DNA of 64,000 bases from an uncultured Caryophanales bacterium (lineage in GTDB: Bacteria > Bacillota_I > Bacilli_A > RFN20 > CAG-449), in assembly GCA_945873815.1 (NCBI GenBank), contig CAMCEE010000006.1:1-64000 (forward strand), written 5' to 3'. Position 1 is the stretch's first letter. Every line of letters begins with the position of its first letter. The translations under genes and the position numbers were made by a program. The notes beneath the pieces were generated by a model that was not told where the DNA came from, searched no databases, and was given only the letters and a program-made list of their open reading frames with translations. This document shows, one piece after another, positions 2,146-52,424 of this stretch.

Positions 2146-3270
2146 TATTTTCAATATTTCAGTATAAGCCATAATAAGAGGGCCTGTACCCTTTGCATCA
2201 TTTTCTACTATCGGTTCAGATAAATAGTATTCGACGCTGCCATCTCGACGTAATTTATCATTAGGACCAAGTCCTGCAACTAAGCATATTCCCCCAAGAT
2301 TTAAATCACCATCTTTATTAACAGAAAGATATTTTTTACAAATTCCATCAAAAATACCTTTACCTATAGCTTGATAAGTTTTATCTAGTACTCCAAGTCT
2401 TACAGCTTTTAAAATTGCGTACGCAATCATTGAACTACCGGATGTCTCTAAATAATTCCCTTTAACATCCTTTAGATTTGGAAGTTGATAGAACATCTTC
2501 GATTCTTCATCTTGATAAAGAAGAATCCCAGCAATCGTTTCTTTAAATATTTTAATCAATCTTTCTTTTTCTTTAGTATGATCTTCTGCGATATAATCAA
2601 TACAATCGATTAACCCTACTGTATACCAACCAATCGATCTTAACCAAAAGTTTTTAGATAATCCAGTTTTTTTATTGCACCAGAACATTTGTTTTGAAGA
2701 ATCATAACCGTGATAATACAATTTCTTCTCCTTATCAAACATTATTCTATATACATTTTCAAATTGATTGATAGTATCGCTGTAATCTTTTATTCCTCTT
2801 TCTGTTTGATATCTTATATAAAAAGGTTGCATCATATATAAACCATCTAACCATACTTGATTAGGATAGATTGCTTTATGCCAGAAGTTTCCTTCTTTTG
2901 TACGAGGATGATTTTGGACTTGTGTATATGTTAATTCAATTGCCTTATTATATTTCTCATTATTTGTAATCTTATATAAATCAAATAAAATACGAGATTC
3001 ACACACATCATCAGTTGAATATTTAAGAGGATCATATCCTCTAATAGAACCGTCATCAAATACATAATAATCTACAAAATTAACAACGAAATTAAGATAT
3101 TTCTCTTCTTTAGTAGTTTTATATAATTCTAGCAATGATGTTATCATACACCCATCAATGTAATTCCAAGCCGGTTTTTTTCCATTCAATATTGACTCGA
3201 TATTCCATAAAGGCATATTTGGATTTGAAGTCATAAGTTTTTCAATATATTTATCGATAATTGGATACAT
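2143..3270 (-). CDS. GH105 unsaturated rhamnogalacturonyl/glucuronyl hydrolase
   Basis: 375-residue member of glycoside hydrolase family 105 (YteR/YesR type). These enzymes release the unsaturated uronic acid left at the non-reducing end by pectin-type lyases. The (alpha/alpha)6-barrel signature pieces are visible: WNYIDG at residues 35-40, DDVCESRILFDLY near 87-100, WLDGLYM with Asp about 142 at the position expected for the catalytic residue, and WLRSIGWY near 210. There is no signal peptide, so it acts on imported oligosaccharides in the cytosol. RBS AGGAGGG lies six bases before the ATG. No pectin lyase, sugar importer or regulator is next to it, so its polysaccharide substrate cannot be read from context. 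Confidence 0.85.
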   Translation of the reverse strand: MYPIIDKYIEKLMTSNPNMPLWNIESILNGKKPAWNYIDGCMITSLLELYKTTKEEKYLNFVVNFVDYYVFDDGSIRGYDPLKYSTDDVCESRILFDLYKITNNEKYNKAIELTYTQVQNHPRTKEGNFWHKAIYPNQVWLDGLYMMQPFYIRYQTERGIKDYSDTINQFENVYRIMFDKEKKLYYHGYDSSKQMFWCNKKTGLSKNFWLRSIGWYTVGLIDCIDYIAEDHTKEKERLIKIFKETIAGILLYQDEESKMFYQLPNLKDVKGNYLETSGSSMIAYAILKAVRLGVLDKTYQAIGKGIFDGICKKYLSVNKDGDLNLGGICLVAGLGPNDKLRRDGSVEYYLSEPIVENDAKGTGPLIMAYTEILKI

Positions 3271-3414
3271 TATTATCCCTCCTACAAGACCATTTTATCT
3301 TATTTTCTTCGACAAAAAAATAAAAAGAAATAAGATATATTTTTTTTGTGCCTAGACAATATAATATATTTTAAAAAAATATTATAATAATATTACATAA
3401 TTGGAGGAAACCAT

Positions 3415-4260
3415 ATGAAAATAGCAATATCCACTGATTCAACTTGCGATCTATCAAAAGAAGAAATTATACGAGAAAATATCAATATTGTTCCACTTCA
3501 TGTCATATTAGGTGAATATGAATATAAAGATGGAATTGATATCAATCCATCAATGATATATTCATACGTAGAAAAGAATAATATTTTACCTAAAACTAGC
3601 GCTTGTTCTGCAGGAGAATATTACGAAGTATTTAATAATTTACTAAAAGAATATGACTATGTAATTCACTTTAATATATCAAAAGAATGCTCTAGTAGTG
3701 GTGCGAATGCTGAACTAGTTCAAGAAGAATTCGATGGGAAAGTAAAAGTAATTGATTCTCGTCACTTATCTACTGGACAAGGATTACTAGTAATGAAAGC
3801 ATGCGATTTAAGAAAAGAAGGTAAAGACGTCGAAGAAATTGTCGAATACATTAATAAAATAAAAGATAAAGTCAATACTTCATTTGTAATTGATACATTA
3901 GATTACCTTGCAAAAGGAGGAAGATGTTCTTCTTTAGCTCTAATTGCATCAAAAATACTTAAAATTCACCCACGCATCAATATGGAAAACGGAAAACTAG
4001 AAGTAGCAAAAAAGCATATAGGTTCATTATTTTCATGCATCAATTCATACGTAGAAAATCTCATACAAGAAAATCCTACATACGATGACACAAGAGTCTA
4101 TATCACACATACTAATTGCAGTCCCTTAATCGTTGATAGCGTTAGAAATAAATTAATAGAAAAATGCCACTTCAAAGAGATTAAAGAAACCATTGCAGGT
4201 TCTGTTATCACCTCTCATTGTGGCAAAGGAACACTTGGTGTTTTATTTATTAAAGAATAG
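3415..4260 (+). CDS. DegV family fatty-acid-binding protein
   Basis: 281 residues, full length for the DegV family (FakB in staphylococci). These proteins hold a fatty acid for phosphorylation by FakA. The N-terminus MKIAISTDSTCDLS, the P.TSACSAGEYYE segment near residue 60 (which contacts the fatty-acid carboxylate in the family), and the late ETIAGSVITSHCGKGTLG block are all typical. A strong GGAGG site precedes the ATG. No fakA is in the window. Convergent with the following HD gene, with no gap. Confidence 0.9.
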   Translation: MKIAISTDSTCDLSKEEIIRENINIVPLHVILGEYEYKDGIDINPSMIYSYVEKNNILPKTSACSAGEYYEVFNNLLKEYDYVIHFNISKECSSSGANAELVQEEFDGKVKVIDSRHLSTGQGLLVMKACDLRKEGKDVEEIVEYINKIKDKVNTSFVIDTLDYLAKGGRCSSLALIASKILKIHPRINMENGKLEVAKKHIGSLFSCINSYVENLIQENPTYDDTRVYITHTNCSPLIVDSVRNKLIEKCHFKEIKETIAGSVITSHCGKGTLGVLFIKE

Positions 4261-4926
4261 TTAGATTAAATCTAACCCATTAATAATCAATTTAAATCTT
4301 GCTTTCAATTTACTTGCAGCTAATTTACACAATTCCATTCTTTCAATAAAGATTTGGAAATAATCCATGATTGGTGTAACTTGTGTATCAATTGTTAATT
4401 CAAGCGTTATTGTACGATCTTTTTTTGAAACATCTACCATAGATGATACAACCGCATAGTTAACTCGATCATGAATATTCTCTTCATGTGTTTCCGGATG
4501 TCTAACTCTAGAACGTCTAACATCTGTTTTATCAGCAATGAGTAAAGCTGCCGCGATTGAATTAACCGGGAAAGCTGCCGATTCATCATGGTTTCCTATT
4601 GCCGCGATAATTAAAGCGATATCTTTTGGATCCATTCCTTTTCTAGTTAGAATATTAAAAGCCATTGCTGCTCCATTAAGTCCATGATTGACACGATTTA
4701 TCGTATTTCCAATATCGTGCATGTATCCTGCGATTTGCCCTAATACGATTTCTCTTTGAGAATATCCAAATTTCGAAAGTATATCTTTCACTACGCTTGC
4801 GCATTTTAAAACATGACCAAATGAATGATCTGTATATCCCATCGATGCAAGTGAATGGTCTGCAGTCGATATGTATGTTGCTATCTCTTTATCGTTTCTA
4901 ATGTCTTCGTATGTAATTTCAGCCAT
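4261..4926 (-). CDS. HD-domain phosphohydrolase
   Basis: 221-residue cytosolic HD superfamily protein. Metal-binding residues are visible as H..H spacing in DHSFGHVLKC, the HD dyad in AGYMHDIGN near residue 70, a His-Asp in AIGNHDESAA, and a late Asp in LLIADKTDV. The family hydrolyses phosphomonoesters or nucleotides; the substrate here is unknown. RBS AAGGAG lies upstream of the ATG. The last third lacks recognisable motifs. Confidence 0.75.
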   Translation of the reverse strand: MAEITYEDIRNDKEIATYISTADHSLASMGYTDHSFGHVLKCASVVKDILSKFGYSQREIVLGQIAGYMHDIGNTINRVNHGLNGAAMAFNILTRKGMDPKDIALIIAAIGNHDESAAFPVNSIAAALLIADKTDVRRSRVRHPETHEENIHDRVNYAVVSSMVDVSKKDRTITLELTIDTQVTPIMDYFQIFIERMELCKLAASKLKARFKLIINGLDLI

Positions 4927-21298: not shown

Positions 21299-21375
21299 TG
21301 GTGCCGCGCGTGCAGTCCTGCGCGAACCCGATTCTAGCAAAAATTAGCAATAAACCTCTATTGATTATTGAAAAT
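21299..21375 (-). repeat. 75-bp cassette-associated repeat, copy 2
   Basis: Shares GTGC.GCG...TGCAGTC, GCGAACCCGATT and AAAAATTAGCAATAAACC with copy 3 at 50403. A GC-rich end (TGGTGCCGCGCG) can form a small stem with CGCGAACC. It lies 22 bases behind the stop of the chimeric gene and 17 bases before the terminator hairpin. Confidence 0.75.
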
Positions 21376-49713: not shown

Positions 49714-50338
49714 ATCGAGTAGAGAGTGAAAAACAATAGTTTCTCCGCTCCCTCTCACATCAACGTACGTACGGTCTTCCGTATACGGTTGTTTAAAAAA
49801 TATGCTTGATTTAAATTGTCTTTAGATAAGACTTCATCCATAAACTTCATAGTTTTGCTTTCCTCCTTTTGGTCTATCTATCATCACTATTTTTGGCTAA
49901 CTTTTCACAAGATACGCTTGTTACTTCTCATCCTTTCAAGTTAAATAGACACGTCCATTTGTACTTTGCAAAAGGTTTATTTATTCATCCCTTCATCTTT
50001 CGACTACTTTGGATTCTCTTGACTTCTAGTGACAAACCTTTTTTGACTTCGAGTTTCCCCAAATTCACTAGACCTCACGGTGTAAGGCATATATCTTTCT
50101 AGCCTTGAGTACTTGATTTACTAACTAACTATTACGGTCATTTGTGATTTTAATATGTTTGGCTATTTCATCACCAGTTAATCGCCTTATATCAAGTTTC
50201 TATTCGTAACCCAGTCTATTTGCTACACTCTTCTTTCATCTCATACCTCACGATACAAGACTTAGTTTCGCTATGTAGTTATAACGACTTTCCTACTCGG
50301 GACTTTCACCCTTTAGATATATGACATGCCCGTCACAC
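49714..50338 (-). mobile_element. Class IIC group II intron lacking its RT ORF
   Basis: On the minus strand the element opens with GTGTGACGGGCATG (50338 on) and AAGGGTGAAAGTCCCGA, matching the 5' end and domain I of the Oceanobacillus-type IIC intron. It closes with domain V (49761-49794), domain VI and CTCTACTCGAT (49714). Domain IV keeps an RBS and about the first 18 codons of the RT (from ATG 49850, MKFMDEVLSKDNLNQAYF) fused directly to post-ORF sequence. The domain V triad is AAC where the copy at 51777 and the family have CGC. Upstream lies a terminator stem (GCAGTCAT/ATGACCGC, about 50350-50371) and TTTTCTTT, the usual IIC target. Confidence 0.8.
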
Positions 50339-50344
50339 CAAAGA

Positions 50345-50371
50345 AAAGCGGTCATATAATGACTGCCAATT
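50345..50371 (-). terminator. Terminator of the ATPase gene, target of the intron
   Basis: Minus strand GCAGTCAT tat ATGACCGC, one mismatch, then TTTTCTTT. The group II intron begins a few bases later, as is typical for class IIC insertion behind terminators. Confidence 0.6.
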
Positions 50372-50402
50372 AACCGAACATAAACGTTCGCATATTCTCA
50401 CA

Positions 50403-50477
50403 TGGTGCAGCGTATGCAGTCTAGTGCGAACCCGATTGTTTCAAAAATTAGCAATAAACCATTATTAATTATTGAAA
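50403..50477 (-). repeat. 75-bp cassette-associated repeat, copy 3
   Basis: Plus-strand text TGGTGCAGCGTATGCAGTC, then GTGCGAACCCGATT and AAAAATTAGCAATAAACC, then ATTATTGAAA. Closest to copy 2 at 21299. It lies six bases behind the stop codon of the ATPase gene and about 32 bases before that gene's terminator. Confidence 0.75.
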
Positions 50478-50482
50478 GCAAA

Positions 50483-51776: not shown

Positions 51777-51868
51777 ATCGAGTAGAGAGTGAATAACAAT
51801 AGTTTCTCCGCTCCCTCTCACACCACCGTACGTACGGTCTTCCGTATACGGCGGTTTAAATAAACAAT
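51777..51868 (-). mobile_element. 3' end (domains V-VI) of a class IIC intron
   Basis: Minus strand: domain V with ACCGCCGTATACGG...CCGTACGTACGGTGGT (51856-51821), identical in plan to the Oceanobacillus IIC intron including the CGC triad, then TGTGAGAGGGAGCGGAG and CTCTACTCGAT ending at about 51777. It follows the RT fragment below. The 5' half of this intron copy is missing. Confidence 0.8.
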
Positions 51869-52411
51869 CTATGCTATCGGTTTAAGATAGTACTCAAGAG
51901 GGTCCAATGACCCTCTTTTCTTTAGTCGTGAGTTTGAAATTGCTCTTTGGATTACAAAAGAGTGGCTCTTAAATTGATAGCCTCTTCTACAATAGGTTAG
52001 TCCCTTTTCTTCTTCATTTATTCCAAGTTTAACTAATAAAGAGATTTGTTTACTTGGGGTTTTCCATTGTTTCCAAATAACTACTCTAATTGCATTTCTT
52101 ACCCATGGACCAATCTTACTTTCTAGCGCTCCTTTCATTGAGGCTTGTCGGTAATAATTAATCAAACCTCTTAAGACTTCATTTATCTTTTTAATTCGAT
52201 AAGTTAAGTCTACACTCCAAGAACGCTTTACTAATTTCTTTAATTTGAGAAATAGTTTCTTGAAACTTTCTTTATGGGGTTTAGACTTCCAATTTTCTTT
52301 GTCTTTCCAAAATGAAAAGCCTAAGTATTTAAGGTTATTTGGTCTTGTGATATGTGTCTTTTCTGCATTAACCTTTAACTTAAGTTTTGTTTCAATAAAA
52401 GTAATAATATA
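51869..52411 (-). pseudogene. 5'-truncated group II intron reverse transcriptase/maturase
   Basis: About 180 in-frame codons of the C-terminal RT/X-domain region. Recognisable are KLKVNAEKTHITRPNNLKYLGFSFW, the maturase helices (RIKKINEVLRGLINYYRQASM) and RNAIRVVIWKQWKTP. The catalytic YADD motif and everything before it are absent: the frame begins just behind the stop of the neighbouring gene at 52425 with no start codon. The first 98-codon ATG frame (52165) is only an internal Met. Confidence 0.85.
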
Positions 52412-52424
52412 TTAATAATTAATA

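Follow-up and report, generated by a model that had tools for sequence, protein, structure and literature searches.

The window analysed here, 64,000 nucleotides of a contig from an uncultured Caryophanales bacterium, carries on its minus strand a 625-nt element that begins at 50338 (GTGTGACGGG...) and closes at 49714 (...CTACTCGAT). A second, 5'-truncated copy is also present in the window (Table 1). Judged from its sequence, the element is by ancestry a group IIC intron. It matches RF02001, the model for domain I (D1) of this class, at 104.6 bits (E 2.5e-20; gathering score 32), a score that is not degraded in comparison with those of sister copies (98.8-101.3 bits), and its 5' end (GTGTGACGGG) fits the GUGYG rule of group IIC introns. 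In the alignment its termini are identical to those of the other copies at both ends, in agreement with an earlier sequence-only reading of this DNA that had recognized a class IIC intron with both ends kept. The first 541 nt show 87-96% identity, over the parts present, to copies on contigs C10, C1 and C29 of the same genome and to the intron of a genus relative (G005), and 93% identity to an intact intron from a more distant genus (L072, on G137:C120). Domains V and VI (D5-D6) make up the last 87 nt, and the closing ...CTACTCGAT is common to every other copy.

Table 1. Coordinates of the intron, its parts and its neighbouring copy in the window
Feature	Position	Strand	Basis
Group IIC intron with complete ends, ORF deleted	49714-50338	minus	ends and RF02001
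5' exon: terminator-like hairpin GGCAGTCATTATATGACCGC, then TTTTCTTTG	50339-50367	minus	inspection of flank
C to A change (C258) in UUACCC	50081	minus	invariant in the IIC set used
J2/3, AAG for AGC; partner strand of the triad in the catalytic triplex	50018-50020	minus	alignment
D3 U to A change (U330) in CAUAGUA motif	50009	minus	invariant in the IIC set used
RT reading-frame remnant, codons 1-18 (MKFMDEVLSKDNLNQAYF...)	49798-49850	minus	comparison with the RT of L072:2721-3989
Deletion junction	49797/49798	minus	1224 nt absent relative to intact L072
Domain V, C-AAC-C...G-UUG-A	49760-49791; triad 49790-49788	minus	alignment, RNAfold
Domain VI and 3' splice end ...CTACTCGAT	49714-49759	minus	alignment to other copies
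Second copy, 5'-truncated	51777-52424	minus	RF00029 44.8 bits; GIIM match 52049-52261

The intact L072 intron (L072:2231-4081) is complete at 1851 nt and contains an open 422-aa reverse transcriptase (RT; L072:2721-3989) with RVT_1 and GIIM domains. Among solved structures this RT is closest to 7uim_D (E 8e-148), which we take to be the E. rectale RT chain, and it matches the GsI-IIC RT 6ar1 at E 5e-108; a search for viral relatives of the RT found none. Compared with this reference, the window intron shows one deletion of 1224 nt that joins reference nt 543 to nt 1768, with GCATATTT followed directly by TTTAAACAACCG at the junction, and spans from RT codon 18 to 8 nt beyond the RT stop codon. 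The earlier statement that the RT part is gone from about codon 18 to the post-ORF region was accurate, and the intact RT/maturase in domain IV expected of a mobile group II intron is missing.

Group IIC introns insert at intrinsic terminators (PMC4424553). Since the 5' exon of the window intron consists of a hairpin and a T-rich tract, the element most likely entered by this usual route; the copies that keep their 5' end, this one included, mostly sit after such a structure. The hairpin is absent from the automatic terminator scan, which is stricter and requires an uninterrupted stem. A paralogue of the terminator without the intron was located in the same genome (G000:C4:39607-39671). A repeat of 75-81 bp (AATGGTTTATTGCTAATTTTTG...ATCGGGTTCGC...GACTGCA..CGC.GCACCA), without Rfam match, was also seen at three places (50402-50482 and 21299-21373 of the window, and G000:C27:3760-3840), with 80-84% identity and a GGTTCG/GCACCA-like end stretch.

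In the O. iheyensis intron the catalytic triple helix is formed by the D5 triad C358-G359-C360, the bulge A376-C377 and the J2/3 residues A287-G288-C289, with C358 partnered by C289 (PMC7275048). All seven other copies examined, from three genomes, have a D5 of the form CCGCC...GGUGG, whereas the window intron reads CAACC...GUUGA. What the sequence-only reading had said of D5 was borne out: AAC stands in the 5' arm where the nearby second copy and the Oceanobacillus intron have CGC, and the facing arm has GTTGA for GGTGG when compared with the seven other copies. Its reservation that a corrected alignment might place the triad elsewhere does not apply, because the letters flanking the triad and the lengths of the D5 arms are identical across copies and leave the register clear. 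In the normal register the oppositions 358-385, 359-384 and 360-383 become A-G, A-U and C-U, and the stem loses three pairs (C357/A386, A358/G385 and C360/U383). A slip of one base lets CAAC pair with GUUG and leaves C361 bulged out. RNAfold gives the slipped form as the best fold, at -9.4 kcal/mol versus about -17 to -20 kcal/mol for the normal stem (-20.2 kcal/mol in the comparison of 45-nt D5 pieces). The D5-D6 model RF00029 found no match in the window intron, even at E 10, but does recognise the second copy and the others. The AGC/CGC triad with a paired lower stem that is used to recognise group IIC introns is therefore not what this D5 presents.

The J2/3 strand is also changed, a point that was not in the earlier reading. 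AGC was present in all 8 of the other IIC intron matches retrieved by a pattern search across the order, as well as in the aligned family copies, and the AAG of the window intron departs from this mark of the class. The further hits with AAG in that search showed no intron context. Because J2/3 is changed, layer 1 of the triplex in this intron is G289 with A358 opposite G385. A variant in which all three partners were changed isosterically (C289A/C358A/G385U) kept wild-type splicing rates (PMC7275048).

To describe constraint, invariant columns were defined by six IIC introns from other genera plus the sister copies. The resulting counts are small numbers: 4 of the 14 private changes of the window intron in D1-D3 fall in class-invariant columns, against 4.9 expected without constraint, and in a narrower column range the values were 3/13 for this intron, 0/12 for three sister copies together and 4/27 for the copy G005C7 (8.5 expected). 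The invariant positions affected in the window intron are C258, J2/3 (GC to AG) and U330, the first and last being changed to A; conserved sites have not been avoided. The private changes are, in addition, clustered at the active site, with 5 of 22 inside the 11 triple-helix nucleotides (P about 3e-5 under uniformity), a catalytic region that was chosen partly post hoc; one of the 22 changes is an alignment-edge gap and does not alter the result. Merging adjacent changes leaves 3 of 20 events in the region. This clustering is modest, and it is the sole unexplained point. It can be due to chance in one copy among many, or else most of the domain I changes could be older than the death of the copy. 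Taken as proof of selection, the clustering was rejected as weak, because P falls to about 0.005 after merging and the region was partly defined post hoc.

Broken copies are usual in this genome. Fused or truncated ones occur on contigs C7 and C18, and the second copy in the window consists of an RT C-terminal remnant and a D5-D6 with the normal CGC, its 5' break lying somewhere near 52390-52424. The copy on contig C29 (L013, G000:C29 1-3126) has its RT split by an IS110-family transposase gene on the opposite strand (465-1655). The copy on contig C1 (L012, G000:C1:230000-234411, 2395-4357) is a twintron: an inner group II intron with RF02005 D1D4-6, a 441-aa RT and a GAGCC-type D5 splits the IIC intron after about nt 334, within the conserved CATAGT/AGTCG of D3. 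Nesting of this kind has been described in T. elongatus and Trichodesmium. The ends of contigs C1 and C29 overlap in intron sequence, so both may represent a single copy. In the genus relative, a sister intron (L034, G005:C59, 2532-3161) shows an in-frame deletion of the RT core that leaves 209 aa, and its D5 is normal. The cognate RT genes visible in the assembly are all interrupted or truncated; a driver RT could be hidden, because contigs end inside the copies at C10, C18 and C1/C29. Truncation or inactivation is the condition of most bacterial group II copies (PMC4424553). Since copies 93-99% identical were found in other genera of the order (L072, G137:C120, full length; L073 and L074, G081), their sequences suggest a recent horizontal spread of the intron among these genera.

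The sequence-only reading had proposed a search for other copies with the same deletion and triad, which would show mobility in trans. The search was run and gave no sign of such mobility: no second copy of the deletion was found in the assembly itself, the genus, the family or the class sample, and no other slipped AAC D5 appeared among 279 genomes from the order, in a scan of 84,980 species or in viral contigs. The same reading held that without other AAC copies the element would simply be a dead remnant, and this is the situation of the window intron. The species scan for an AAC D5 returned seven loci, none like this one: four match RF00029 and have their AAC in the normal register (AAC/GUU), a fifth, from Vagococcus, is an IIC-like D5 that carries AAC and has its bottom unpaired, and the remaining two are chance matches. 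Rare D5 triads in other IIC-like introns include CAC in a class relative (L093, G306), where the change turns a G-U wobble into A-U, and AAC in Vagococcus silagei (L040).

The tests of constraint, uniqueness and genome context agree, and each indicates a relic in decay. With a probability of about 0.88, we regard the window intron as one of the multiple copies of a group IIC retro-intron related to the E. rectale-type IIC RT family, a copy that is degenerate and non-mobile. It would have arrived behind an intrinsic terminator, as is normal for IIC introns; a single internal deletion would then have removed its RT, and drift would since have altered J2/3, the D5 triad and its facing strand and two other invariant positions. 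Even with an RT supplied, neither splicing nor movement of its RNA would be expected; we infer both this loss of catalysis and the order of the events. The weakened D5, the J2/3 change, the near-chance share of changes at invariant sites, the uniqueness of the copy and its broken sister copies support the relic. Counting against it are the active-site clustering, the undegraded D1 score and the D5 pairing restored in the slipped register, together with A288 and A359-U, which keep the homo-triplet pattern in one layer.

Mobilization of an ORF-less intron in trans, now or recently, by the RT of a sister copy appears unlikely. In its favour, domain IV is deleted in the same part as in Thermosynechococcus elongatus, the case that it would resemble; both ends, D1 and the terminator site have been preserved, and the genome contains sister copies. 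The ORF-less introns of T. elongatus have a single deletion in common, and driver RTs mobilise them (PMC2882425). However, a single copy with the deletion occurs in the assembly, instead of several at different sites, with some doubt left by assembly gaps; D5 and J2/3 are mutated, a condition that the part of the T. elongatus account used here does not report for those forms (PMC2882425); and an intact cognate RT gene is not visible in the assembly, although one could hide at contig ends. Even less probable is a working intron with a rebuilt triple helix, in which J2/3 AAG meets the slipped CAAC/GUUG of D5 and one C is extruded. Every triad letter pairs in this register, which RNAfold prefers, A288 and A359 match like G288 and G359 of the standard triplex, and the changes are concentrated in two interacting strands. 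Yet G289 is unmatched to A358, the extruded C moves the triad by one base pair relative to the metal-holding AC bulge, two more invariant sites are altered and no second example was found in the order, the species scan or the viral contigs. Moreover, random paired changes in the facing arm would produce slipped pairing in roughly 1 of 10 comparable pairs, by a rough estimate.

A compensatory pair set was likewise considered for the D5 change and rejected as the main reading, because pairing occurs only in the slipped register and J2/3 position 289 is unmatched. That J2/3 and the triad changed together, from AGC/CGC to AAG/slipped AAC, in an intron that is still active and splices or moves with an RT in trans is very improbable. 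A similarly low probability is assigned to a sequencing or assembly error in the draft contig, which is probably metagenome-derived. The window intron is unique and other copies lie at contig ends, as happens when an assembler has trouble with a repeat, but this copy is placed well inside an 86,622-base contig with unique sequence on both sides, and an assembly error would not typically yield separate substitutions at J2/3, in D3 and in each of the D5 arms.

The earlier description, a class IIC intron without ORF and with an altered triad, is literally correct, whereas the active variant triad or movement in trans that it implied found no support: the copy is unique, J2/3 and two other invariant sites are mutated, and no intact cognate RT is visible. 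Since the window intron fails in its D5, J2/3 and RT features, the appropriate annotation is a degenerate (pseudo) IIC intron, neither a functional ORF-less intron nor a new triad type. It resembles the E. rectale, O. iheyensis and GsI-IIC introns in its RF02001 D1, its GUGUG 5' end and its site after an intrinsic terminator, as well as in the CGC-type D5 of its sister copies and the RT of its intact relative. In contrast to these introns, it has no RT and shows AAG and AAC for AGC and CGC. With the ORF-less TeI3 introns of T. elongatus (PMC2882425) it shares an RT cut by one domain IV deletion with N-terminal codons remaining, and the presence of further related copies in the genome, twintrons among them. 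TeI3 is multi-copy and trans-mobilised, whereas the window intron is single and mutated in its catalytic core. Like the inactivated bacterial group II copies already described (PMC4424553), it is an inactivated retro-intron copy located outside genes; unlike the fragments among the truncated copies, it retains both exact ends.

If the intron were active, AGC and CGC would not be the sole solutions tolerated by an active site that is shared with the spliceosome, and it would be, to our knowledge, the first such intron found in nature whose catalytic triplex is altered on both strands. If it is dead, the finding matters little by itself, and it documents the decay of a recently active IIC family that is spreading between related bacteria.
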